Source: Acidobacteriaceae bacterium (GTDB taxonomy: Bacteria; Acidobacteriota; Terriglobia; Bryobacterales; Bryobacteraceae). From it: a stretch of 38,514 nucleotides of DNA. This document shows, one piece after another, positions 367 through 16,485 of the stretch; position 1 is the first letter of the stretch; the number at the start of each line of letters is the position of its first letter. Location: positions 1 to 38,514 of the forward strand of contig JAFAUR010000927.1 in the NCBI GenBank assembly GCA_019243205.1, read 5' to 3'. A model generated the notes under the pieces. It ran no database searches. It saw only the letters and a list, made by a program, of their open reading frames with translations, and had not been told where the DNA came from. The position numbers and the translations under genes were made by a program.

Positions 367-1548
367 TTATAGCTTCACGACGATTCTGCGGCGACGTAGA
401 TAGAACACGGGTAACCAACAGAAGATCACGAAGAGAATTGACCAGATTAGGGACCGAAAGGCAGCAGACCCGAGTGCCGTAGGTATGAGGTGGTACAAAC
501 AAGCTTGAAGAGTGCCAAACCTTCTCATTGGAATGCTGCCAAGCGCAATGCTGAGCACTTCTGAGAAAACGTAGGCGGTCAGTGCGTTTGCACCGAAAGC
601 AAGGAACGGCTCCAGACTCCGTCGGAGTAGCCGCTTCTCATCGACTATCCACATCAAGAATGTAAGCAGAGCCAGGGAGATGCCCGCTGTGAACAGCACG
701 TAGGAGCTGGTCCACAAACGCTTGTTAAGTGGAAAGCTTTGACTCCAGGCGAGGCCGCATGAAGTAAGCAGCAATGCCATCACTAGCATGGCGGCCAATT
801 TGCGCGGCGTTGGGACATCACGCCGCGTGATCCAGATCCCGGTAAGAACTCCCAAGCAAGTACTGGCAATAGCGGGCAGGGTGCTCAGAATACCTTCCGG
901 ATCATAGAAGCTGAAGTGGTACCTGTGAGACTGCGGAATCAGCAGGCGATCGATGTAGCTTGCGAAATTTCCCTTTGGGTCGAGAATCGGGACATCCGTA
1001 CCCGGCAACCCGAATCCCGGCACAGGCACTTTCGTCAGCAACAGCCAGTAACCAAGAACGCTCAAGCCGGCGATCAGCATCACGCCCTTTGGGCGGAAAG
1101 CCAGGAGGGCCAGCGCCGAGGCAACATAGCATAAGCCGATGCGCTGCATAACGCCGAAATAGCGAAGCGTGGCCAGATTGGGAATCGGGAGAGCGTTCAA
1201 GGCCAAACCGATCAGGATGATCAGCGCGGTTCGCCTGAGCACTTGCCGCATGATCTCCCCATGGTTTGCACCCTTGACGATGCGCGACTGAAAAGAGATT
1301 GCAGTGGAGACGCCCATGATGAAGAGAAAAAGCGGAAACACCACATCCGTCAGCGTGCACCCATTCCATACCGAATGGCGCAGTTGTCGGTAGGAGGAGG
1401 CGCCGTCAGCCGCGTTGTTGACCAAAATCATCAATGCCACGGTAAGCCCGCGAAGGGCATCGAGGGACAGTATCCGCTGCTTATCGATCGACTTCGGCGC
1501 TGTGGCGGTCGAAATGGGTGCGCCGGCTGACCGAGTGTTTATGTCCAC
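367..1548 (-). CDS. HGSNAT/NagX-like membrane acetyltransferase (DUF5009 type)
   Basis: This 393-residue polytopic membrane protein matches the family of heparan-alpha-glucosaminide N-acetyltransferase and bacterial NagX. After a short cytoplasmic N-terminus comes the family signature LSLDALRGLTVALMILVNN (residues 28-46), then RHSVWNGCTLTD with His58, which aligns with the histidine acetylated in human HGSNAT (KHASWNGLT), then FPLFLFIMGVS and about nine further hydrophobic segments. In humans the enzyme moves acetyl from cytosolic acetyl-CoA across the membrane to terminal alpha-glucosamine; a similar transmembrane role here is inferred. The start is GTG at 1546-1548, inside the last codons of the upstream GH89 gene (10-bp overlap), so the two are almost certainly co-transcribed and translationally coupled. 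Substrate is unproven. Confidence 0.88.
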   Translation of the reverse strand: MDINTRSAGAPISTATAPKSIDKQRILSLDALRGLTVALMILVNNAADGASSYRQLRHSVWNGCTLTDVVFPLFLFIMGVSTAISFQSRIVKGANHGEIMRQVLRRTALIILIGLALNALPIPNLATLRYFGVMQRIGLCYVASALALLAFRPKGVMLIAGLSVLGYWLLLTKVPVPGFGLPGTDVPILDPKGNFASYIDRLLIPQSHRYHFSFYDPEGILSTLPAIASTCLGVLTGIWITRRDVPTPRKLAAMLVMALLLTSCGLAWSQSFPLNKRLWTSSYVLFTAGISLALLTFLMWIVDEKRLLRRSLEPFLAFGANALTAYVFSEVLSIALGSIPMRRFGTLQACLYHLIPTALGSAAFRSLIWSILFVIFCWLPVFYLRRRRIVVKL

Positions 1549-3755
1549 ATTCTGCAGTCCTCCAACATCCGCCGGGCTTCCGCGATTACATCATCCACAG
1601 GACGAGGCTTGCTAGCGACGTAAGGGGTCGCTATCCAGTTCTGGATCCATTCTTCAAGCGATGGGCCGCGCTCGCCGGCGAGACGAGCAAAGAAGACCTC
1701 CCAGCGCGCCGCGTAGTAGTCGCGAATCAGTCCGCTCCAAACGCGCGATGCATAGTCCTCCAATTCCTTCCATCCCCAAAAAGTGATAATAAGCCGCGCA
1801 TTGGAATCATAGAAGGCTGCTTCGTCAGGCGATCTGGCCCATGAGCGTGCGTCACTAACCCAGGTTTCGAGGCGGCGATCGATCCGGGTATGCAGTAATG
1901 CATCGATGCGGTGCAGCATATCTACAGCCTGTTTTGACTGTTTGTCGCGGTCGTTCGCGCGGCGTTCTTCATGAGCCCGGCAAGCTGAAGCGAGCCTGTG
2001 ATCGACTGCTCCGCCTACGGATTGCGCAACTAGTTCGATGAGATCGTTGCGGTATAGCGAAACGGCACCTAATTCGTCTGCGCAGGAGATAAATAGTTCA
2101 ACGGCTCCCTGAAACTCCGGGCTGGTATCAACGTGCAACGGTTTGGGGCTAAGCGATGGATGGGATTGGAATGCCTGTCTGGTTTTCCATACGTCGCTGC
2201 CATAAGCGCTCCTGAGCAAAAGCTGCCATGCCTGCCGCATCCGGGCCGGATACGCACCGTAACGCGCGAAACAGTAGCTCCCGATCCAGCTGTCGAGGTC
2301 AACAGGAGTCGATGTCCAGCCGATATCGGTCATCAGCTCATAAACAACCTCGTTGCTTTCGATGCCTTCCATATCGAGGCCCCACCCAATGAGGTTGCCT
2401 TTCGCGGGGTTGGCGAGAACCGCTGCAGGCTTGCTCGCGATCATCGGCAGATTGCCTTTGACATTGTTGTTCCCGCCGAAGGTGTGCGCCATTCCATTGA
2501 TCCAGGGCTTGCCGAAGAATGCATCCAGCCGTTTCCATGCATCTGGAGCATTGTGATATTCCATCTCGTGTACCGAGTCCATGTCGGAGGCGTAATCAAT
2601 TGTCAGCAGGCGATCGTTTGGCACACCTGATAGCAAAGCCTGCGTGGATTGCATATCCCAGAATTTCGGATTGTTTGCGTACTGCCATCCCTGCATGACC
2701 CAGACCCCGTCCGGATCGCCTGCCTGGATACCCGCGTAGATATTGGCCGCGCACTGCTTCAAATCCGCATATCGGTGCGTCTCCGACACTGGTGGTTGCA
2801 ATTCGTTGAACGGATCCGCCAGATAGTAGCCGCCGGTATCGAATTCCTTCTTGTAGCTCTCAATGAAGCGCCGGCCGATTTCCATGAACAAATCGCGTTC
2901 AGTGGGATCCAGCAGAAACGTGCGGCACTCTCGCGGGAACCCTGGTGCACTATCCCATAGCAGGGTGGAGATTCTGGCACGCGGGTATAGACGTTTAAAC
3001 GCCTCCGGAACATGACCGGCAAACCCTGGGACGATGGGCGTCATCCCGAGCGTCTTAGCCCGCTCGACGATTCTCTTTTGGAGTTGCCGTTTTCCCTCGA
3101 TCCAGCTTTGCGGTATCGGACCTTCGAATTGATTGATATTGCCCATACGATGCCACGGGAGCTGCGCCGGACCCGTAGCGAAACGGTTCCACTCTGCTTC
3201 GGTGACGCCGAAGGAAGACCATACACGCTGCCAAACGGCTTCCTGACCATCGAGCGCGAGCGGCATGTTGATGCCGTGCAAGGCCATCCAGTCAAGTTCG
3301 CGTTCCCATCGCCGCCAGTTCCAAAATGGCGTGGAATAGCCAAACGTGCACGGGTTCAAGTACTGCGTAAATCGATACGGGCAAACGACACGCAGCGGCC
3401 GCTGCTCGGGCCATCGCTCCGGCAGTTGCAGGCGTCGACCGCTCCAGGTAATCATTCCGAGATGGTTGTCGCGCAAGTAAGCATAAACTGCTCGCAATGC
3501 GCTGACAGCGCTGTTTGCCTTCACTTGCACTTCGCCGTCGGAAGCTGAGATTTCAAAAACGCTCTGCCCGTGCTCGGACGGAATCATACTCAGGTGAAAA
3601 TCTTGCGCGCGCTGACCGAGATAGCGAGCCAGTACGTCACGTCCTGCTGCCATTGGGTCTGTCGTGTACTGTTCCGGACTCGGTTCGCTCGCAGACGCGA
3701 GTCTCTTCATGAATGCAGCGCCCGACGCGGCCAGTAGCACTCGTCTGTTCACCAT
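1539..3755 (-). CDS. Alpha-N-acetylglucosaminidase, GH89 (NAGLU homologue)
   Basis: The 738-residue product matches human NAGLU and bacterial GH89 enzymes, which release terminal alpha-linked N-acetylglucosamine. Visible landmarks are RFTQYLNPCTFGYSTPFWNW, WERELDWMALHGINMPLAL, GGYYLADPFNELQPP (the FNE glutamate is the likely acid/base), HTFGGNNNVKG, and the EGIESNEVVYELM segment, which contains the second glutamate expected of the family. The N-terminus (MVNRRVLLAASGAAF) has twin arginines and a hydrophobic stretch, so export is likely. ATG at 3753-3755 has only a weak ribosome site. The stop overlaps the HGSNAT-like gene. In lysosomal heparan sulfate breakdown HGSNAT acts just before NAGLU, so the pairing is functionally suggestive. 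Length is normal for the family. Confidence 0.95.
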   Translation of the reverse strand: MVNRRVLLAASGAAFMKRLASASEPSPEQYTTDPMAAGRDVLARYLGQRAQDFHLSMIPSEHGQSVFEISASDGEVQVKANSAVSALRAVYAYLRDNHLGMITWSGRRLQLPERWPEQRPLRVVCPYRFTQYLNPCTFGYSTPFWNWRRWERELDWMALHGINMPLALDGQEAVWQRVWSSFGVTEAEWNRFATGPAQLPWHRMGNINQFEGPIPQSWIEGKRQLQKRIVERAKTLGMTPIVPGFAGHVPEAFKRLYPRARISTLLWDSAPGFPRECRTFLLDPTERDLFMEIGRRFIESYKKEFDTGGYYLADPFNELQPPVSETHRYADLKQCAANIYAGIQAGDPDGVWVMQGWQYANNPKFWDMQSTQALLSGVPNDRLLTIDYASDMDSVHEMEYHNAPDAWKRLDAFFGKPWINGMAHTFGGNNNVKGNLPMIASKPAAVLANPAKGNLIGWGLDMEGIESNEVVYELMTDIGWTSTPVDLDSWIGSYCFARYGAYPARMRQAWQLLLRSAYGSDVWKTRQAFQSHPSLSPKPLHVDTSPEFQGAVELFISCADELGAVSLYRNDLIELVAQSVGGAVDHRLASACRAHEERRANDRDKQSKQAVDMLHRIDALLHTRIDRRLETWVSDARSWARSPDEAAFYDSNARLIITFWGWKELEDYASRVWSGLIRDYYAARWEVFFARLAGERGPSLEEWIQNWIATPYVASKPRPVDDVIAEARRMLEDCRMWT

Positions 3756-4228
3756 ATCTTTAATCAGACAAAAAGCTGTTCCTGTTTAGGGAAGACCCAC
3801 CGGAGGACGGTCAGTCAATTGATCCCAACACTGCCGTAAGTCTGATACCAGCTTTGGCGCCAGCATCCCGATGGATACCGCTGTTGCATTCGTGCCCAAT
3901 CGCGGTTGTAGCGGAAACCTTCGTATCGTCTCCGTAGCGGCGGCTTCCGCGGGCCCGGAGCCGCTGCGGCATTCTTGGCCGATGACGAAAGCGTGCGCGC
4001 CTTCATCATCAACCAAGCTGGCATTGGACCGGGGAATCGCGTCTCCTACTTCGAAGCGTTGCTCCGATTCCTGGCCGTACTCGCCTGCCGTAACGCGAGC
4101 ATCGTTTTCTGCCGCACCCGGGGCACTTAAATCACGAAAGATTCCGATTGAGACAAAACGCTTCCGAACAGGATAAAGCGATTCCGCACCGTTAAGTCTT
4201 AGGCTGTTAGCTGTAGGGAGTTTCCTGC
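3756..4228. other. Divergent 473-bp spacer between GH89 and GH2 units
   Basis: This spacer should hold the promoters of both the leftward GH89 unit and the rightward GH2 unit. Short open frames occur on both strands, including one on + that lacks an ATG (3912-4130) and two on - (3786-4016 and 3815-4024). None has a recognisable domain or convincing ribosome site. A degraded gene is possible, since the composition is as GC-rich as coding DNA. I find no confident promoter, and no repeat or RNA gene. Confidence 0.4.
4214..4219 (+). promoter_or_regulatory. Ribosome binding site deciding the GH2 start
   Basis: A purine run (GGGAG) lies about 7-8 nt before ATG 4229 and favours that start over the in-frame ATG at 4253. 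Both starts leave the twin-arginine signal intact. Confidence 0.55.
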
Positions 4229-6772
4229 ATGCGAAACGTCCCAGGCTCGCCCATGGATTCCCCGCACTCTCATATCTTTGCTCAGCCAGCCTTCACCCGC
4301 CGCACGCTTCTGAAAGCATCTTCTGCGATTCTGACGGGTCCCTTACTTCGCGCCAGGGCAGGGGCCCCGTATTCTGATGGAGTCGCAGTTTCGAACAGCC
4401 GCCGCCTGCTCACCGGGTGGGAATACTATCGCGGCAATCTCAGTGGCCCCTGGGATGCGTGGCGCACGAGTAAGCAAGCCGCCGGTAACTTCATCGAGTG
4501 GCAGAAGGTGCAGCTTCCGCATTGTTTCAACGCTCTCGATGCTGCCGATCCGGATCACGCCTATTATCAAGGCCCTGGTTGGTACCGCACAACTCTTCAG
4601 ATCAACAATCCCTATCCGAACGGACGCACGCTGATTCACTTTGAAGGTGCGGGACAGAAGATGCAGCTGTTCGTGCATCTCGACCGCGTCGGCGAAGAGC
4701 ACATTGGGGGCTACGATGAGTTCACCGTCGACATCACCGATGCCGCGGCGCGCGCCACTGCGGAAAACAAGGGAAAGGTTCCGATCGCGATCTTTTGCGA
4801 CAACTCGCGGGACCTCGAAATGATTCCGTCCAGCCAAAGCGACTTCTGTCTCTACGGCGGCCTGTATCGCCACGTCAATCTCGTCTACGTCCCGTCTCTT
4901 TCGCTCGAGCGCGTTCACGTGTTTTCCGACGTTCAACCTGCAGGAACAGCGAACGTATCCGTTCATGCGCGGCTGTACAACCCGGGATCACTCACAGACT
5001 CGGTTGATTACTCGATACGAGTCACCGGGCCCGATGCTGGTGTCGTTCATTCCAGCTCCGGCCGCGCGACGCCCTGGAAAGCAGACCGCGAACTTCTGTC
5101 CTTCGCGGTGGACAATCCACAACTCTGGTCGCCCGGGTCCCCCAGCGTTTACAACTGCGAGGTAACGCTCAACGCGGCTTCGACCACTATGTCGGTCGGC
5201 GAGCGCTTCGGCCTCCGTCACTTCGAATTTGTCGATCACGGCCCGTTCAAACTGAACGGCGAACGTCTGCTGCTTCGCGGAACCTGCCGCCACCAGGACT
5301 GGGCCGGTTGCGCGGGAGCCGTTTCCGAAGACCTCACGCGGAAAGAATTTCAGGCGATGAAAGATATGGGGGCGAACTTCGTTCGTCTTGGGCATTACCA
5401 GCAGTCGCCCGAGGTTCTTGACGCCTGCGACGAGCTAGGGATTCTCGTTTGGGAAGAGATTCCCTGGTGCCGTGGGGGCGTTGGCGGTGAGCGCTACAAA
5501 CATCAGGCCCGCACCATGCTGCGCAACATGATCGATCAACATCGGAACCACCCGTCGATCATCCTCTGGGGATTGGGGAATGAAAACGACTGGCCCGGCG
5601 ATTTCCCGACTTTCGATCAAGCTGGCGTGCGCCAGTTGATGACGCAGCTCAACGCCCTCGCGCACGAGCTCGACCCTTCGCGCAAGACAGTCATTCGTCG
5701 CTGCGATTTTGCCAAGGACATCCCGGATGTCTACTCGCCCTCGATCTGGGCCGGTTGGTATCGCGGGCTCTATACGGAATACAAAAGCTCCTGCGAAGAC
5801 GAGTTCAAGAAAGTCAAACACTTCATCCACGCCGAATGGGGTGGCGACAGTCACGCGGGCCGTCACTCCGAAAATCCGAACACGGGCATCTCGAAAATCG
5901 CGGCCGGCCAGGGAACCGATGAACGCAGCGGCGACTATCTCGCGAGCGGCGGGCAGGCGCGCGCTTCCCGCGATGGCGACTGGTCGGAAACTTATGTCTC
6001 CGAGCTATTCGATTGGTACCTGAAAGAACAGGAGACCATGCCGTGGCTCACCGGCTCGCTCCAGTGGGCGTTCAAAGACTTCCCGACGCCGCTGCGCCCG
6101 GAAAACCCGGTTCCACGCGTGAATCAGAAAGGCCTGTTAGAGCGCGACGCAACGCCTAAAGAAGGCTACTTTGTTTTCCAGTCCTATTGGGCCGAAAAGC
6201 CGATGGTCCACATCTACGGGCATACGTGGCCCATACGTTGGGGCCGCGCGGGAGAGCGCCGATGGGTTCACGTCTACTCCAACTGTGATTCGGTTGAGCT
6301 CTTCGCTAACGGCTCGTCTTGCGGAACTAAAAAACGCAACAGCCAGGACTTTCCCGCCGCGGGCCTGCGCTGGGAAGTTCCGTTTCACGAAGGCGAAAAT
6401 CAGCTCCGGGCCGTCGGCCGCTCGAAGTCCGGTTCATCGGTAACGGACGAAATCAGCTTTCAATACCAGGTGCAGACATGGGGTAAGCCTGCCCGCATTG
6501 AAGTCCGCGAAGTCGCGCGGAATTCCGGCAGCGTCACAATCGAAGCTCGTCTTCTCGATAATTCCGGCGTTCTCTGTCTCGATAATCGCCAGCGCGTCTC
6601 GTTTCGCATCGCCGGTTCGGGCAACCTCATCGATAATCTCGGCACTCCGAAGACGTCGCGTGTTGTCGAAGTTTACAACGGGCGCGCCCTGATAAGTGCG
6701 AGAACTTTCCCAGGCGAGTCCATTATCAGCGTCCAGTCCGAAGGCGTACCGGGCGCATTCCTCAAGGTCTGA
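4229..6772 (+). CDS. Glycoside hydrolase family 2 with DUF4982-like domain and N-x-K motif
   Basis: This 847-residue exported GH2 enzyme has a Tat-like signal (TRRTLLKASSAIL, residues 23-35), a sugar-binding jelly-roll domain (about 60-225), an immunoglobulin-like domain (about 226-330) and a TIM barrel (about 335-620). The acid/base is Glu452 in LGNENDW and the nucleophile Glu536 in HAEWGG. A DUF4982-like domain and a further beta domain follow. Asn632-Gln633-Lys634 (VNQKGLL) resembles the N-x-K motif that binds the uronate carboxylate in beta-glucuronidases, although related beta-galactosidases can carry similar residues. ATG 4229 follows GGGAG with good spacing; ATG 4253 is an alternative. 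It lies 2 bp from the alginate-lyase-family gene, implying one operon. Beta-glucuronidase is favoured over beta-galactosidase, but not settled. Confidence 0.9.
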   Translation: MRNVPGSPMDSPHSHIFAQPAFTRRTLLKASSAILTGPLLRARAGAPYSDGVAVSNSRRLLTGWEYYRGNLSGPWDAWRTSKQAAGNFIEWQKVQLPHCFNALDAADPDHAYYQGPGWYRTTLQINNPYPNGRTLIHFEGAGQKMQLFVHLDRVGEEHIGGYDEFTVDITDAAARATAENKGKVPIAIFCDNSRDLEMIPSSQSDFCLYGGLYRHVNLVYVPSLSLERVHVFSDVQPAGTANVSVHARLYNPGSLTDSVDYSIRVTGPDAGVVHSSSGRATPWKADRELLSFAVDNPQLWSPGSPSVYNCEVTLNAASTTMSVGERFGLRHFEFVDHGPFKLNGERLLLRGTCRHQDWAGCAGAVSEDLTRKEFQAMKDMGANFVRLGHYQQSPEVLDACDELGILVWEEIPWCRGGVGGERYKHQARTMLRNMIDQHRNHPSIILWGLGNENDWPGDFPTFDQAGVRQLMTQLNALAHELDPSRKTVIRRCDFAKDIPDVYSPSIWAGWYRGLYTEYKSSCEDEFKKVKHFIHAEWGGDSHAGRHSENPNTGISKIAAGQGTDERSGDYLASGGQARASRDGDWSETYVSELFDWYLKEQETMPWLTGSLQWAFKDFPTPLRPENPVPRVNQKGLLERDATPKEGYFVFQSYWAEKPMVHIYGHTWPIRWGRAGERRWVHVYSNCDSVELFANGSSCGTKKRNSQDFPAAGLRWEVPFHEGENQLRAVGRSKSGSSVTDEISFQYQVQTWGKPARIEVREVARNSGSVTIEARLLDNSGVLCLDNRQRVSFRIAGSGNLIDNLGTPKTSRVVEVYNGRALISARTFPGESIISVQSEGVPGAFLKV

Positions 6773-6774
6773 AC

Positions 6775-7971
6775 ATGCTCAATCGCAGACAATTTCTATC
6801 CACTTCCGCTGCCGCGTTTGCTCTTTCCCGGACATTGCGTTCGTCTGAGTCTTTCGATCTTGCCGCTATCGAACGACCCCGTGTCCTCAAACACGCAAAC
6901 GAATTCCTGAAGGATAAACCGGTTACTGTGACCGCTTCTCACAGCGATCGGTCCGCAGGCGGTCTGCACGATTATTTTTCCGAAGGCGACTATTGGTGGC
7001 CCGATCCCAAGAATCCCAACGGGCCGTACATCCAGCGCGACGGCATGTCGAACCCCGGCAACTTCCTGGCACATCGCGAGGCCCTGCTGCGCTTGAGCGT
7101 TCAGGCTCCGATGCTCTGCTCGGCCTGGGTGCTCACGAAAGATCGCAAGTATGCCGAGAAAGCCGCCGATCATCTGCGCGCGTGGTTTATCTCGAAAGAC
7201 ACGCTGATGAATGCGAACCTGCAATATGCGCAGGCTATTCACGGCCGCTTCACCGGGCGCGGCATCGGGATTATCGATACTCTGCAGCTCGTCGATGTGG
7301 TTCGCGGTGCAAGCGCGATCAGTGGTTCAGGAGCCCTTTCAGCGGACGAGCTGCGCGCTGTTCACCACTGGTTCGCCGACTATCTGACGTGGATGACGAC
7401 CTCGAAAAACGGAATCGACGAACGCGAAGCCAAAAACAATCACGGCAGCTGCTGGGTACTCCAGGCCGCCGTATTCGCGACCTTCACCGGAAACTCGGAC
7501 GTCAAGAACTTCTGCCGCGAGCGCCTGAAAACGGTTCTGATCCCGCATCAGGTTGCGCCCGACGGCAGCTTCCCCGAAGAGCTTCGTCGTACCAAGCCCT
7601 ACAGCTATTCGCTGTTCAATTTGGAAGTGCTCGCGGGCATTACGCAGATCTTGTCCAATGCCGACGACAATCTATGGGACTTCGCGCTACCCGACGGTCG
7701 ATCGGTGGCTAAAGCTGAAGCATTCATGTACCCGTACATGGCGGATAAAGGCAAGTGGCCTCACCCTCGCGACGTTATGTACTTCGATCAATGGCCTGTG
7801 CGCGAGCAGAGCCTGCTCTTCGCCGGTCTAGCTCTCAAGATACCCGAGTACCTCGCGCTCTGGCGCAAGTTGAATCCCGACCCCACCGTAGAAGAAGCGA
7901 TCCGCAACTACCCCATTCGCCAGCCGCTGCTGTGGATGAATCCCGCTGTCGATCGCGGCGTGACGGTCTGA
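6775..7971 (+). CDS. Exported alginate-lyase-family polysaccharide lyase (PF05426-like)
   Basis: The 398-residue protein has a twin-arginine signal (NRRQFLSTSAAAFAL) and then an all-helical toroid typical of the alginate lyase family. Landmarks are HSDRSAGGLHDYFSEGDYWWP (residues 56-76), the KNNHGSCW motif (220-227, with Asn222 and His223 as likely charge-neutralising and catalytic residues), and RTKPYSYSLFN (272-282, with candidate catalytic tyrosines). Such enzymes cleave uronate-containing chains by beta-elimination; alginate, glucuronan and other uronans are all known substrates of relatives, so the name does not fix the substrate. Its ATG is 2 bp after the GH2 stop, so a lyase and an N-x-K GH2 enzyme are made together, consistent with stepwise uronan degradation outside the cytoplasm. 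Confidence 0.87.
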   Translation: MLNRRQFLSTSAAAFALSRTLRSSESFDLAAIERPRVLKHANEFLKDKPVTVTASHSDRSAGGLHDYFSEGDYWWPDPKNPNGPYIQRDGMSNPGNFLAHREALLRLSVQAPMLCSAWVLTKDRKYAEKAADHLRAWFISKDTLMNANLQYAQAIHGRFTGRGIGIIDTLQLVDVVRGASAISGSGALSADELRAVHHWFADYLTWMTTSKNGIDEREAKNNHGSCWVLQAAVFATFTGNSDVKNFCRERLKTVLIPHQVAPDGSFPEELRRTKPYSYSLFNLEVLAGITQILSNADDNLWDFALPDGRSVAKAEAFMYPYMADKGKWPHPRDVMYFDQWPVREQSLLFAGLALKIPEYLALWRKLNPDPTVEEAIRNYPIRQPLLWMNPAVDRGVTV

Positions 7972-7976
7972 ATCTA

Positions 7977-8591
7977 CTATTGACGCCTCTTATGTCTGGT
8001 GGCTACGGCCACTATCACTAGCCCGGCTCCGAGCAAAGCCAGGGCAGCTGGTTCCGGGACCGCGGTACTGGCCGCGTCGATATTATCCAGTGCCAGCGGC
8101 GAACTCGGGTTATTGATAACGACGCGGTTGAACGTTCCCGAAAACGTTCCGAGTCCCTCCCCGTTAAATGCCCCGGGCGGGAAACTGGAAGTGAAGGTAG
8201 TCGATCCCACCAGCGTGCTGTCTTCGAACGCACTGAACATAATCGGAACCGCAACGCCTGCCGTTGCGAAGTCAAATGTGATCCGAGTCAGATTCGATGA
8301 GAACGCAATCGTGATTGGGCCCGATTCCGTGGGTGGTCCGCACAGGTGCTGAATCAGTACGTTCCCCGTCAGCGAACTGAATATTCCTAAAGATTCGCAA
8401 ACAGAGGCTGATCCCGTGAATGTTGCCGAGAGCCCGTTCACAGTGTCGGTGAAAGGCGTTGAAGTACCTGCCGTGATGTTTTCAAAATCGTAAATCGCAT
8501 CTCCGCGGGCGCTGCTTAGAACAAAAAACAGAGATGTGATTGAAACAAAACCATTGAGAATTGTTCTAGAAAAACTCATTTGCCTTGGCAT
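7977..8591 (-). CDS. PEP-CTERM sorting-domain protein
   Basis: The 204-residue protein has an N-terminal signal peptide (NGFVSITSLFFVLSSARG), a beta-rich body with no family I recognise, and a C-terminal sorting signal: VPEP, a hydrophobic helix (ALALLGAGLVIVAVA) and the basic tail RHKRRQ. PEP-CTERM proteins are cut by an exosortase and are often tied to exopolysaccharide or surface structures. Two starts are possible: ATG at 8589-8591 and ATG at 8577-8579 (MSFSRT). The promoter-like TACAAT at 8590-8595 on this strand would favour the second. The gene converges on the lyase gene (5 bp apart) and is divergent from the amidohydrolase gene, sharing a palindrome-bearing spacer. Confidence 0.85.
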   Translation of the reverse strand: MPRQMSFSRTILNGFVSITSLFFVLSSARGDAIYDFENITAGTSTPFTDTVNGLSATFTGSASVCESLGIFSSLTGNVLIQHLCGPPTESGPITIAFSSNLTRITFDFATAGVAVPIMFSAFEDSTLVGSTTFTSSFPPGAFNGEGLGTFSGTFNRVVINNPSSPLALDNIDAASTAVPEPAALALLGAGLVIVAVATRHKRRQ

Positions 8592-10107: not shown

Positions 10108-10145
10108 CGCTCCGGGCTTCCGTTTTGTGATCTACGTTAGTGAAC

Positions 10146-11111
10146 ATGACCTCAACCCCGCCCGCCGGAACTACCGGCTCGCACACCAGCGCTGATCTCG
10201 GCTTCAGCCAGCACTTATCGCAACGTCTGCATCGACTCGTCAATCGCGATGGCCGCATCAATGTGCAACGTTCGGGTCGAGGTCTGATGGATTCCGTTTC
10301 GTACGATAGGCTGCTGCTTATGTCGTGGCCACGCTTCTTTGTGCTGGTGACGTTTTCGTTTATTCTCCTCAACGTAATCTTCGGCGCCGCATACTTGGCC
10401 TGTGGCAAACAAGCGCTCGCGTTGAACGGACCGGATATAAAGGTGAGCGACGTTTGGCGGGCATTCTTCTTCAGCGTGCACACCTTTGCAACCATCGGCT
10501 ACGGCAACATCGTTGCGATTGGCCTACCGGCAAACCTGTTAGTTGCTCTGGAAGCGTTGGTCGGACTACTCGCATACGCGATTGCCACGGGCCTCCTCTT
10601 CGCTCGTTTCTCGCGCCCGCTGGCCCGCATTCGCTTCAGCCGCTACGCCGCCATCGCCCCTGACGCGGCCGGTAATTCAGCTCTCGAGATTCGTCTGGCA
10701 AACCCCACTCGCACCGAGATGATTCAACTGAAAGCAGGTCTCTTATTCTCATTTTTCGATAACTCGCTAACCCCCGCCGCCCGGCGTTTCTTCCCGCTGT
10801 CGCTGGAACGAGAAGCCGTCGCCTTTATGCCGCTCATCTGGACACTCACGCATCCGATCGACAAGAACAGCCCTCTGTTCGGGCTTGATGCCGCTCGTTT
10901 GAACGCGACGCGTGCGGAGATTCTCCTTAATATGGCCGGTATCGACGAGGTCTCGGCTCAAAGCGTCTACTCACGCACGTCTTACACCGCCGCCGATATC
11001 GTGTGGAATGCCAAGCATTCCGACATCTATATCCGCGATGCCGATTCCAACCTGCTTGGCATCGATCTCAGCCGCTTTGATGAGATGATCCCGCTCGAGA
11101 GCCGCAGGTAG
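10146..11111 (+). CDS. KirBac-type inward-rectifier potassium channel
   Basis: The 321-residue protein has the bacterial Kir plan: cytoplasmic N-terminus, a slide helix, outer membrane helix (WPRFFVLVTFSFILLNVIFGAAYLA), pore helix with selectivity filter TIGYGN, inner helix (LVALEALVGLLAYAIATGLLFARF), then an immunoglobulin-like cytoplasmic domain of about 170 residues. FARFSRP after the inner helix is typical of KirBac. It should conduct K+ across the inner membrane under control of its cytoplasmic domain. I prefer ATG 10146 over GTG 10140, two codons upstream; neither has a strong ribosome site. It follows the amidohydrolase gene by 38 bp and may be read through from it, but no functional tie is evident. 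Family call is firm; ligand and gating are unknown. Confidence 0.93.
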   Translation: MTSTPPAGTTGSHTSADLGFSQHLSQRLHRLVNRDGRINVQRSGRGLMDSVSYDRLLLMSWPRFFVLVTFSFILLNVIFGAAYLACGKQALALNGPDIKVSDVWRAFFFSVHTFATIGYGNIVAIGLPANLLVALEALVGLLAYAIATGLLFARFSRPLARIRFSRYAAIAPDAAGNSALEIRLANPTRTEMIQLKAGLLFSFFDNSLTPAARRFFPLSLEREAVAFMPLIWTLTHPIDKNSPLFGLDAARLNATRAEILLNMAGIDEVSAQSVYSRTSYTAADIVWNAKHSDIYIRDADSNLLGIDLSRFDEMIPLESRR

Positions 11112-12028: not shown

Positions 12029-12186
12029 GAAATTTCTCCTATGTTGATATCGGAAGAGAAACGCTGCTAAATCGCTTGTCGGAGGGAAACTCGTCTCGGA
12101 CGTGCGTGGTAGCGAACGGGGCAGGAAGGAGCGTTAGAGGTGCAACGTCCCCTCATACGAGTTTAGATGGAAACCGCCCCGCGTCG

Positions 12187-12215
12187 TTGCCGAGGACGCG
12201 AGAAAGTTGTTATAT
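12187..12215 (+). promoter_or_regulatory. Candidate sigma70 promoter of the GntR/LacI regulator, apparently leaderless
   Basis: TTGCCG (12187-12192), a 17-nt gap and TTATAT (12210-12215) make a fair promoter. The transcript would begin about 12222-12224, and the preferred ATG is at 12226, leaving almost no leader. This also argues against a longer reading frame that opens at 12076. Confidence 0.5.
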
Positions 12216-12225
12216 CTGGTTGCGC

Positions 12226-13344
12226 ATGGCTGGTGAGCACTCGCTCCGGTTCAGGCCGAAATATCAGCAACTGTTCGAATCGCTGAAGGCCGACATTCTT
12301 TCCGGGCGCTACAAACCAGGGCAAAAACTTCCGAGTGAGGCAGCGCTCGTGAAGAGATCGGGCGCCTCCCGCATCACTGTCGGTCGCGCGATACGCGAGC
12401 TGCAGAATCTAAATCTCGTCGACCGCGTCGCCGGGTCCGGCACGTACGTTCGCGATCTCGCGACCGAAACGCGCCCGCATCTCTTCGGTCTTCTGATTCC
12501 CGATCTCGGCGAAACAGAGATCTTCGAACCGGTGTGCCATGGTATTGCCAATGCTCCCGAAGCGCCCGAGCACGCCCTGCTATGGGGCCACGCCGATGCG
12601 CACGCCGCGAAACCCGAGCAGGCGTGGCGCCTCTGCCAGCAGTACATCGCGAATCAGGTGTCCGGTGTGTTCTTTGCTCCGCTCGAGTTTGAAAGCGAAG
12701 CCGGCAAGACGAACCGCCGTATTCTGCTCGCACTGCGCCAGGCCAACATCCCTGTCGTGCTGCTCGACCGGCGCGCTTCGAAAACGCCGGAACGGAATCG
12801 CCCTGATCTGGTCGGCCTCAACAATCGTCATGCCGGCTATATTGCAACTGAGCACCTGATCAACTTGGGGTGCAGGCGAATCGCTTTCCTCGCTCAGCAC
12901 GGCGCTGCGTCCAGCATCGACGAGCGTCTCGCGGGTTACAACGAGGCGCTGTCTGCGCACGGGTTGCGTCCCGAAGTGGAATCCACCCAGCTCGACTCCG
13001 ATAGTCAATCGCTGTTTTCACCGCGCCGCAACAGGCAAGTGTCGAGCGAGGCTTTCGTGTGCGTCAACGACCGGGTTGCCGGACAACTCATGCAAGTCTT
13101 TCTCGGCCGCGGGATCAGAATCCCCGACGATGTCCGGCTTGTTGGAATCGACGATGTTTCCTACGCCACTCTGTTGCCCGTTCCTCTGACCACCATTCGC
13201 CAGCCCACGCGCGAAATCGGCGAAGCCGCGCTACGCACGATGCTCGACCGCCTTCGTACACCTCGGCTTCCGCCGCGCGAAATCCTGCTCGATGGTGAAC
13301 TCATCGTGCGCAAATCCTGCGGCGCGTCTGCAAACGTTGCTTGA
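12226..13344 (+). CDS. GntR-LacI chimeric transcriptional regulator
   Basis: The 372-residue protein joins a GntR winged helix (about residues 10-77: YQQLFESLKADILSGRYKPG, LPSEAAL, ASRITVGRAIRELQ, GSGTYV) to a LacI-type sugar-binding domain (about 85-365), as in AraR-like repressors. The C-terminal half shows VVLLDRRA, RRIAFL, FVCVNDRVAGQLMQVFLGRGIRIPDDVRLVGIDDVSYA and PLTTIRQP, all classic for the LacI/GalR fold. It should bind an operator and be released or engaged by a small sugar. The frame extends upstream to 12076, but those 50 residues are unlike any domain, and a promoter-like sequence lies immediately before ATG 12226. A perfect palindrome 3' of the gene, ahead of GH13, is a candidate binding site. 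Targets probably include GH13 and itself. Confidence 0.9.
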   Translation: MAGEHSLRFRPKYQQLFESLKADILSGRYKPGQKLPSEAALVKRSGASRITVGRAIRELQNLNLVDRVAGSGTYVRDLATETRPHLFGLLIPDLGETEIFEPVCHGIANAPEAPEHALLWGHADAHAAKPEQAWRLCQQYIANQVSGVFFAPLEFESEAGKTNRRILLALRQANIPVVLLDRRASKTPERNRPDLVGLNNRHAGYIATEHLINLGCRRIAFLAQHGAASSIDERLAGYNEALSAHGLRPEVESTQLDSDSQSLFSPRRNRQVSSEAFVCVNDRVAGQLMQVFLGRGIRIPDDVRLVGIDDVSYATLLPVPLTTIRQPTREIGEAALRTMLDRLRTPRLPPREILLDGELIVRKSCGASANVA

Positions 13345-15000: not shown

Positions 15001-15694
15001 CCGCCGGCGTAGTTGCATTTTCCGCGCGCAGTCTGTGGTTGCAGGGCTTCGAGAAGATTTTCACCTCTTAATCGAACGATTGTTGATCGCTTACAGCAGA
15101 CCCCGGGCTCCTGGCAAAACCTGCCTGAGACTCTCCGCCGTGGAATCTTACCATCGCGCTCCCTGCTTCCGGGTGGCCTCACCTGTCCTTTCTCTACCTA
15201 CTAACGGGATCGAAAGGTCACTTGCGCACTCATCTGCTTTGCGGAATGATCAAGCCCAAACGCACCATTCCATACGTCGTTGAGCCGCACGCGGCATGTA
15301 TAACTGACACCTTCAACAGGGGTGCACGCTTGGAATGCGCAAGAATTTCTCGTCTTCGTACGCGTACTCTGCTCTTCGGCGGAACCTTTGTACCGTTACT
15401 AATTCCATCGGAGTATAACGATAAGTGCCATTATCGGCGTAAATCGGTGGAACGCTAACATTTTCAAGGGAAATTGTCTTTCTACAATAGACCAATCGCT
15501 TTATCAGGATAGTCCTAGATGGACCATTGAGTCACTCCTAATGCCGTAAGTTTTACAGGGCTATCCATCTTCTCTAAGTCGTTTGTCCCCAGTACATTTG
15601 GTGGTTGTAGTTAGTAAATGCAGTTCTTTCCTCGGGAGGCACATGTCAGTTAGTCTGGCGTTGGGTAGGGAGCCTCAGGGTTATCTGTACCTGG

Positions 15695-15710
15695 TCATGA
15701 CTAGTCATGA
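15695..15710. promoter_or_regulatory. Perfect 16-bp palindrome upstream of PEP-CTERM gene
   Basis: TCATGACTAGTCATGA is a perfect palindrome that ends 22 nt before ATG 15733 and 13 nt before its ribosome site. The half-site TCATGA is also directly repeated. Its place suits a repressor operator or an mRNA hairpin near the ribosome site. A weak -10-like TTATCT lies at 15681-15686. Confidence 0.5.
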
Positions 15711-15723
15711 AAATTCTCTCTAC

Positions 15724-15729
15724 GGAGGA
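15724..15729 (+). promoter_or_regulatory. Strong ribosome binding site for the second PEP-CTERM gene
   Basis: GGAGGA lies 3-4 nt before ATG 15733 and supports that start over the in-frame ATG 15643, which also has a GGGAGG upstream but would put an extra 30 residues before the signal peptide. Confidence 0.6.
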
Positions 15730-15732
15730 CAA

Positions 15733-16485
15733 ATGCATTTATCTAAACTCATAGGAGCGAAAGCTTCGAACGGGGGTAGGATTGGAAACCGGTTCCTTCT
15801 TGCTCTCGCGATCGGCGCGATTGCGGCTGCACCTTCTTTCGCAAGCACAATCGACCTGGGCATTAACGGCGACGCAGAAGTAGGTGCGAACTTCATTCTC
15901 TTCGCTAGCGACTATCCGCACGACACAACCTTTGCGCCTGCATCCGGCTACGGGAACATCGTTGTGACGCAGGTTCAGCCTGGCAACATCCTGAGCAATG
16001 CCGGCGTAACCGCGGGTGAAGGCGGCTCCATCATGAGCCTGAGCTCCGCCACTACTCCGGTAAAGTCCAACCCGGACTTCACAAACCCCTACAGCCCGTT
16101 TCCGTTCATCACATTTGCAAGCGGCGGTTCCAATGAGCAGTTGTATCTCACGGCTCTGTTGCAGGGTGATTTCGCACCGGGCACCCCCTTCACTTTCACC
16201 AATACCCCGAATGGCCTGGTAGCGAGCTTCAATGTGGACGGGTACATCCTGGATATAAGCAGCGGCGCGAAGACGAACTATACAGGCACGTTTTCGGCGA
16301 CGTTCAATGGCGTCATGTCAAGCGCGGACCTGCTCGCCGCGCTGCCGGTGCAAACGCCTTTCTCTGCTACCTTCACTCTGACGACCGCACCCAGCGTCCC
16401 GGAGCCCGGCTCCCTGATGCTCATGGGAGCTGGATTGCTGAGCCTCGGCTTCATCGGCCGGCGCCGGTTCGCCCAGAAGGGCTAA
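15733..16485 (+). CDS. PEP-CTERM sorting-domain protein, second copy type
   Basis: The 250-residue protein has a signal peptide (RFLLALAIGAIAAAPSFAS, residues about 20-38), a glycine-, serine- and threonine-rich beta body with no family I recognise, and a classical PEP-CTERM tail: VPEPGS, hydrophobic LMLMGAGLLSLGFI, and basic GRRRFAQKG. It should be exported and cut by an exosortase near the outer surface. The body is unlike that of the first PEP-CTERM protein, so the two are not recent duplicates. GGAGGA precedes the chosen ATG, and a perfect palindrome lies just upstream. The next gene, an NHL-repeat protein, is 146 bp downstream on the same strand. Role unknown; surface matrix or adhesion is the usual inference. 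Confidence 0.87.
   Translation: MHLSKLIGAKASNGGRIGNRFLLALAIGAIAAAPSFASTIDLGINGDAEVGANFILFASDYPHDTTFAPASGYGNIVVTQVQPGNILSNAGVTAGEGGSIMSLSSATTPVKSNPDFTNPYSPFPFITFASGGSNEQLYLTALLQGDFAPGTPFTFTNTPNGLVASFNVDGYILDISSGAKTNYTGTFSATFNGVMSSADLLAALPVQTPFSATFTLTTAPSVPEPGSLMLMGAGLLSLGFIGRRRFAQKG

Follow-up and report, generated by a model that had tools for sequence, protein, structure and literature searches.

The window analysed here, 38,514 nucleotides in length, is a complete contig (C382) whose ends are both contig ends, from an assembly of 7.79 Mb in 1139 contigs with a completeness of 90.7% and a contamination of 6.08%. Its G+C content is even throughout, at 55–58%. An outer-membrane protein from a genome of the same class finds its best plasmid matches in Granulicella and Acidisarcina, both acidobacterial, so that the phylum is probably Acidobacteriota. 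Between positions 367 and 7971 lie four genes arranged as two divergent pairs, with the following features.

367..1548, minus strand: HGSNAT-like membrane acetyltransferase of 393 aa that starts with GTG and matches Pfam HGSNAT_cat and human HGSNAT structures
1539..1548, minus strand: 10-bp overlap in which the GH89 gene stops and the HGSNAT-like gene starts (GTG)
1539..3755, minus strand: GH89 alpha-N-acetylglucosaminidase, 738 aa, with all three NAGLU domains
3756..4228: divergent intergenic region, 473 bp
4229..6772, plus strand: GH2, glucuronidase-type, 847 aa, with Glu452, Glu536, and Asn632-x-Lys634; 6d7j and 6d1p are its nearest relatives of solved structure
6775..7971, plus strand: PF05426 lyase of the PL38 type, 398 aa

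Open reading frames and Pfam searches bear out these genes as an earlier sequence-only reading of the window had placed them, including the overlap at 1539–1548 and the divergent pair of a GH2 gene with Asn632-Gln-Lys634 and an alginate-lyase-family gene. The overlap suggests translational coupling of GH89 and the HGSNAT-like gene; the GH2 and lyase genes, both on the plus strand, are separated by 2 bp. A simple scan of the intergenic region found neither a sigma-70-like promoter nor a terminator. Inspection by eye revealed twin-arginine-like N-termini in GH89, GH2, and the lyase (NRRVLLA, TRRTLLK, and NRRQFLS, respectively), suggesting that these three proteins may be exported. The earlier reading had also noted the absence of a sulfatase, and a Pfam scan found none among the 20 window ORFs; elsewhere in the genome, 12 stretches match sulfatases, and some of these are fragments of a single gene.

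The GH89 protein matched the Pfam domains NAGLU (E = 9.8e-122), NAGLU_C (E = 4e-49), and NAGLU_N (E = 5.7e-19). Its Glu318 and Glu463 sit in conserved motifs, at positions that we take to be those of the GH89 catalytic pair. The protein is nearer to human NAGLU (4xwh, 407 bits) than to the Clostridium perfringens enzyme (271 bits), and in the alignment it is gapped at the s-t-w-g loop of the latter, the site of what is probably Trp685, a number read from the alignment only. This Trp loop has been tied to the recognition of GlcNAc-alpha1,4-Gal in GH89 (PMC8225759, in excerpt). A mucin-type target containing that linkage thus appears less likely for the window enzyme, the loop being apparently missing, and is kept in play by the beta-galactosidase-like neighbours of GH89/HGSNAT pairs elsewhere. 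According to the same excerpt, Bt3590, a GH89 of Bacteroides, cleaves the ends of heparosan oligosaccharides (PMC8225759). Enzymes of the Bt3590 type are likewise hNAGLU-like, and the window GH89 may resemble them in having no Trp loop; it differs in its operon with HGSNAT, and its activity is predicted only.

The HGSNAT-like protein contains the Pfam domain HGSNAT_cat (PF07786; E = 3.5e-13, 50 bits against a cut-off of 22) and aligned with human HGSNAT structures over human residues 257–617 (E = 1e-26). Window residues His58, Asn44, and Asp68 align with human His269, Asn258, and Asp279; roles of a catalytic His, an acetyl-CoA Asn, and entrance residues are described for the human protein in the available portion of PMC11357348. 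The His269 equivalent is kept in 48 of 48 HGSNAT-like rows, and equivalents of Asn258, Asp279, Arg344, Asp469, Glu471, and Glu587 are kept by the window protein as well as by 19/19 pairs from its phylum. Where human HGSNAT has His586, the window protein has Ser, and pairs from Bacteroidota have Arg or Gln in the Asn258 column and His in the Glu587 column. By domain and residues, we classify the window protein as a probable member of the HGSNAT/YeiB membrane acetyltransferases. Its sole NCBIfam match is NagX (NF046061), for which it falls below the cut-off (165 bits versus 480). This cut-off is strict, because a protein in nag-gene context (L182) also misses it with 350 bits. Scores to NagX were 162–178 bits for the window and for alphaproteobacterial or phylum pairs, and 322–350 bits for Bacteroidota pairs.

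The pairing of GH89 with HGSNAT was surveyed in 396 genomes of the phylum, with a GH89 threshold of E ≤ 1e-40. GH89 was present in 21 genomes, at 24 places, and at 19 of these, window included, an HGSNAT ORF was directly adjacent on the same strand, a recurrence that puts the adjacency beyond chance; the remaining five places (L103, L107, L108, L109, L125) had no adjacent HGSNAT. A search led by HGSNAT yielded five further pairs (L224, L225, L226, L229, L232). Within the fetched stretches of the five other GH89-containing genomes of the same family, HGSNAT did not lie beside GH89. Plasmid records contained GH89 in 22 cases, an HGSNAT-like match in 26, and both in 10, with the two genes adjacent in nine. 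These nine pairs are all alphaproteobacterial (Asticcacaulis 4, Novosphingobium 4, Sphingomonas 1) and account for every alphaproteobacterial plasmid record with GH89 (9/9); in all five that are annotated, the two genes overlap by 4 nt. GH89 was also found in eight of ten Bacteroidota genomes picked through the GH2 work described below, and among nine loci fetched from them HGSNAT adjoins GH89 in three and is missing as a partner in six. The three pairs come from Pedobacter and share the order SusC-SusD-phosphoesterase-HGSNAT-GH89-GH28-GH92. At one Pedobacter pair locus (L170), GH89 is split over two frames.

These data indicate that the coupling of GH89 and HGSNAT is real and recurs in three phyla; a limited literature search found no mention of it. 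The dependence is one-sided: GH89 is rare and usually accompanied, and HGSNAT-like genes are common without GH89, occurring in 141 of 299 genomes of the class. Such a dependence is what would be expected, indirectly, of an enzyme that prepares the substrate of GH89.

The other pair of the window has a different distribution. Pfam identified GH2 domains in the 4229–6772 ORF, and its best match, nearly full length, was 6d7j (deposited as Beta-Glucuronidase) at 1041 bits, followed by 6d1p at 928 bits; we take both to be GH2 glucuronidases of gut Bacteroidales. The score to the GUS LacZ4 model was 292 bits (cut-off 950). Both glucuronidase features tested, the N-x-K motif and Glu452 with Glu536 as assigned by homology, are present, and we assume for them the roles that they have in beta-glucuronidases. 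The 6d7j match and the N-x-K motif thus make the GH2 look like the glucuronidase that the earlier reading had proposed; it shares the motif and the near full-length match with the 6d7j/6d1p type and differs from it in its Tat-like signal. The lyase carries an Alginate_lyase domain (Pfam, E = 2.4e-83), and its nearest match is the uncharacterised 3nfv (191 bits), followed by the PL38 type of 8bdq (150 bits), which we take to be BoPL38. Belonging to the same Alginate_lyase fold family as the PL38 lyases, it is probably a PL38 enzyme by kinship to characterised members. In the parts of PMC13027841 and PMC11790493 available, PL38 enzymes are reported to act on alginate, glucuronan, hyaluronan, and chondroitin, and an Akkermansia PL38 is reported as active on every GAG tried, with 'heparin sulfate' as the exception.

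When public genomes were scanned with the GH2, 221 relatives came up; the best 80 loci, all Bacteroidota by title, were kept. A PL38-type gene lay within the fetched locus in 63 of the 80, directly adjacent (<400 bp, same strand) in 28, and a GH88-like gene was present in 62; GH89 was found in none of these 80 loci. Fucosidases are often near the GH2 and lyase: gene clusters over 83 GH2 loci, scanned through one representative each, showed GH95 in 28 and GH29 in 21. Within the window's own family, one locus (L013) has lyase, GH2, and GH88-like genes in a row, and two on short contigs (L014, L015) have GH2 without a nearby lyase. Because the GH2 and lyase recur without GH89, they belong to a module for uronate polymers that has no fixed link to GH89. 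A distant HGSNAT-like gene was noted in 8 of the 80 loci. The HGSNAT-like genes beside GH2/PL38 in eight Pedobacter loci were rejected as support for a four-gene block, as they belong to a distant branch and have no equivalents of Arg344 and Glu471.

We envisage the four genes as two catabolic modules head to head, probably independent of each other in this cell, with the PL38-type lyase and GH2 beta-glucuronidase degrading a polysaccharide that would contain beta-glucuronate. For the other module, the human lysosome provides a model, in which HGSNAT and then NAGLU act on glucosamine-ended chains in the breakdown of heparan sulfate. Our best reading, to which we give slightly less than even weight, is that the HGSNAT-like protein would N-acetylate a terminal alpha-glucosamine in the periplasm and that GH89 would then remove it. 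With acetyl-CoA from the cytoplasm, the membrane enzyme would N-acetylate the likely acceptor, a terminal alpha-glucosaminide, on the periplasmic side, and so turn a molecule on which GH89 would not act into one on which it would; GH89 would release GlcNAc for import and use, the steps presumably following in that order. In this way the operon could strip both terminal alpha-glucosamine and alpha-N-acetylglucosamine from oligosaccharides, probably periplasmic ones. That the acetyltransferase re-acetylates ends so that GH89 can act had been suggested from the DNA sequence, and the mechanism appears reasonable since the coupling recurs and the acetyl-transfer residues are present. The window pair shares with the human step the two families, the proposed order, and the key residues; unlike the human step, it forms a single bacterial operon and has other partner glycosidases, and its HGSNAT homologue corresponds to the membrane part only (393 aa) of human HGSNAT. 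Counting against acetylation followed by cleavage are the absence of a partner at 5 of 24 phylum places and 6 of 9 Bacteroidota loci, the column changes in Bacteroidota, the Ser at the His586 position of the window protein, and the unpaired state of its nearest HGSNAT relatives.

A strong rival, possible in our judgement if rather doubtful, is a NagX-like function, in which periplasmic free glucosamine is N-acetylated for GlcNAc transporters and GH89 is co-expressed because both enzymes feed GlcNAc catabolism. According to excerpts of Price et al. 2022 (PMC9007349), NagX, which has a conserved His, serves glucosamine use as judged by fitness data from five bacteria, and periplasmic acetylation was proposed. 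The window protein resembles NagX in superfamily, length, and conserved His, and NagX is its only NCBIfam match; it differs in scoring 165 bits versus 480 and in having GH89 as operon partner. HGSNAT relatives outside GH89 loci adjoin nagA, murQ, or nagB genes, and in Novosphingobium nagA and the genes of a SIS protein and a PTS fusion lie divergently to the pair (nagA called by Pfam in L159, and in L184 and L185 by similarity to the L159 NagA). Most phylum pairs, however, have no shared nag neighbour, and no NagA match was found in L126–L145. Moreover, GH89 yields GlcNAc, and we know of no GH89 that releases free glucosamine, so that an enzyme for free glucosamine is not needed beside GH89 and has no obvious reason to accompany it. 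The main, indirect, argument against the NagX-like function is the one-sided dependence of GH89 on HGSNAT. Given the nag genes near HGSNAT relatives and the Novosphingobium pair, GlcNAc catabolism would be the common end point in either reading.

The sequence-only reading had joined all four genes into one block for a heparan- or heparosan-type polymer; in such a block the lyase would cut a GlcA-beta/GlcNAc-alpha chain, GH2 and GH89 would trim it alternately, and HGSNAT would repair unacetylated ends. We consider this improbable. The gene set is enzymatically suited to such a polymer, Bt3590 acts on heparosan oligosaccharides (PMC8225759, in excerpt), and PL38 enzymes with GAG activity exist (excerpts of PMC13027841 and PMC11790493). 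The genome also holds one GH88 match and the 12 sulfatase stretches, and both modules occur in three Pedobacter genomes, but on different contigs. Conservation of GH89/HGSNAT with GH2/lyase in relatives, the test by which that reading could have been refuted, came out against the block: with GH89 in 0 of 80 GH2 loci, the two modules are separate. Similarly, among 150 genomes of the same family, GH2 (E ≤ 1e-100) was present in four and GH89 in six, and only the window's genome had both. None of the fetched GH89/HGSNAT loci had a glucuronidase-type GH2 or PL38 beside the pair, and the GH2-type neighbours in L129 and L225 are beta-galactosidase-like, with no N-x-K in the C-terminal half. Heparinase II/III (PF07940), the one heparinase family searched, had no match in the genome, which is 90.7% complete, and the Akkermansia PL38 was inactive on 'heparin sulfate' in the excerpts cited above, a property in which other PL38s may differ. 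The four-gene block therefore joins two separate modules and is not a conserved unit, and heparosan is a weakly supported substrate. What stands of that interpretation is the GH89/HGSNAT coupling, the acetylation mechanism as a proposal, and the glucuronidase-like character of the GH2; the single heparosan block does not. It is very improbable that the HGSNAT homologue is instead a transporter importing GlcNAc released by GH89, as proposed for the related TfMurT, which is mentioned in excerpts of Price et al. (PMC9007349); this would explain the coupling to GH89, but the protein retains the catalytic His and the residues for acetyl-CoA, and the same authors argue against transport by NagX.

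The neighbours of the pair in other bacteria may bear on the glycan involved. In two Novosphingobium loci (L184, L185), the next gene downstream of GH89-HGSNAT, on the same strand and 15 bp after HGSNAT, is a GH115 gene, and a second N. humi record has GH115 likewise downstream by coordinates. GH115 is best known from xylan. It was present in seven of the nine adjacent-pair plasmid records (adjacent in three, ~3 kb off in one, and 12–19 kb off in three from Asticcacaulis), and in none of 16 HGSNAT-only or 12 GH89-only records (Fisher p = 2.9e-6, a value that ignores the origin of the seven records from three genera and the greater gene number of large replicons). Of the five nearest HGSNAT relatives, three (L217, L218, L219) also have GH115 in their loci; it was found in none of 20 phylum GH89 loci (L126–L145), and the window genome has two GH115 matches, on other contigs. 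Near the pair are beta-galactosidase-like GH2 genes in L129, L225, L156, L160, L186, and L158, and GH92 in L163, L165, L170, and L229. Among neighbouring ORFs of HGSNATs without GH89 (70 of 84 scanned with Pfam), the matches listed, which are the best 25 of 82 families and leave room for chitinase families, include GH115 in two and GH2 domains in three.

In excerpts of PMC8099651, plant GIPC of series A is given as GlcNAc-alpha1,4-GlcA-alpha1,2-inositol-1-O-phosphorylceramide, and tobacco GIPC as having both GlcNAc and GlcN forms, with Gal, Ara, and Man added; GlcN-GlcA-IPC is thought to be a deacetylation product (PMC9113257, in excerpt). It is conceivable, if unlikely, that the pair is a lysosome-like step of acetylation and cleavage targeting the GIPC head group GlcN(Ac)-alpha1,4-GlcA-alpha1,2-inositol-P-ceramide. 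HGSNAT would acetylate the GlcN form, GH89 would remove GlcNAc, and a GH115-family alpha-glucuronidase would remove the exposed GlcA; in the window's genome, this last role would fall to one of two GH115 genes unlinked to the pair. GIPC suits the pair because its GlcN form presents the kind of end for which HGSNAT would be required, with an alpha-linked GlcA next to it, and we hypothesize that the GH115 and beta-galactosidase-like neighbours of the pair or its HGSNAT kin fit GIPC better than heparosan. The case is weaker for the window than for Novosphingobium, because the window pair adjoins a beta-glucuronidase and GH115 is unlinked. A literature search, far from exhaustive, found no report of a bacterial route dismantling GIPC head groups.

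The GH89/HGSNAT part of the locus is of more interest than the sequence-only reading could show. Loss of the HGSNAT step causes Sanfilippo disease type C. If the proposed mechanism is true, this step has a genetically tractable bacterial counterpart with a soluble partner, assembled several times, and the acceptor and the order of acetyl transfer become testable outside lysosomes. If GIPC is indeed the target, the pair would belong to a first candidate route for the bacterial breakdown of head groups in one of the major classes of plant membrane lipids.

The origin of the pairing was examined on trees of both proteins by a quick method. The paired label required at least 6 changes on the GH89 tree, 5 of them forced by well-supported branches, versus 14.0 in shuffles; on the HGSNAT tree, which included the nearest relatives, it required at least 8, 5 forced, versus 19.6. 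On either tree these changes may be gains or losses alike. The HGSNATs of the phylum pairs, a single group (support 94/94) on a tree without the nearest relatives, split once these join. The window HGSNAT groups with L216–L220 (support 99), five copies with no GH89 beside them, and its nearest relatives (52–60%) are likewise not beside GH89. The window GH89 groups with L103–L106 and L225, four of these five being paired. Because its HGSNAT falls with unpaired copies and its GH89 with mostly paired ones, the window pair looks to have been assembled on its own. In one genome (G198), a GH89/HGSNAT pair lies ~10 kb from a copy of the unpaired kind that resembles the window HGSNAT.

In three loci, the HGSNAT gene, among those nearest to that of the window, is convergent with a gene for a protein of about 810 aa, at these positions:

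L216:10861-13284, ~810-aa protein
L218:5259-7700, ~810-aa protein
L219:6778-9216, ~810-aa protein

These proteins are more than 60% alike among themselves, and a Pfam search at 1e-5 gave no match for them. The window's own genome carries a second HGSNAT-like gene (L175:7331-8566; ~27% identical), which is adjoined by a Gfo/Idh/MocA oxidoreductase gene.

Eight Pedobacter clusters (L041, L049, L055, L057, L076, L085, L093 and L099) encode a GH2, a distant HGSNAT/DUF5009 protein and a GH2-PL38, and a GH18-cluster gene is also present in several of them. The Pedobacter GH89 at L170:9108-11317 reads as split over two overlapping frames, possibly due to a frameshift or a sequencing error.

Pfam analysis of the window also identified the following:

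7977-8591, -, PEP-CTERM protein, one of two
10140-11111, +, inward-rectifier (Kir-type) potassium channel, with an IRK_C domain
12076-13344, +, regulator whose DNA-binding part is GntR and whose sugar-binding part is LacI-type
15583-16485, +, the other PEP-CTERM protein

An alpha-amylase-family gene lies downstream of the regulator.
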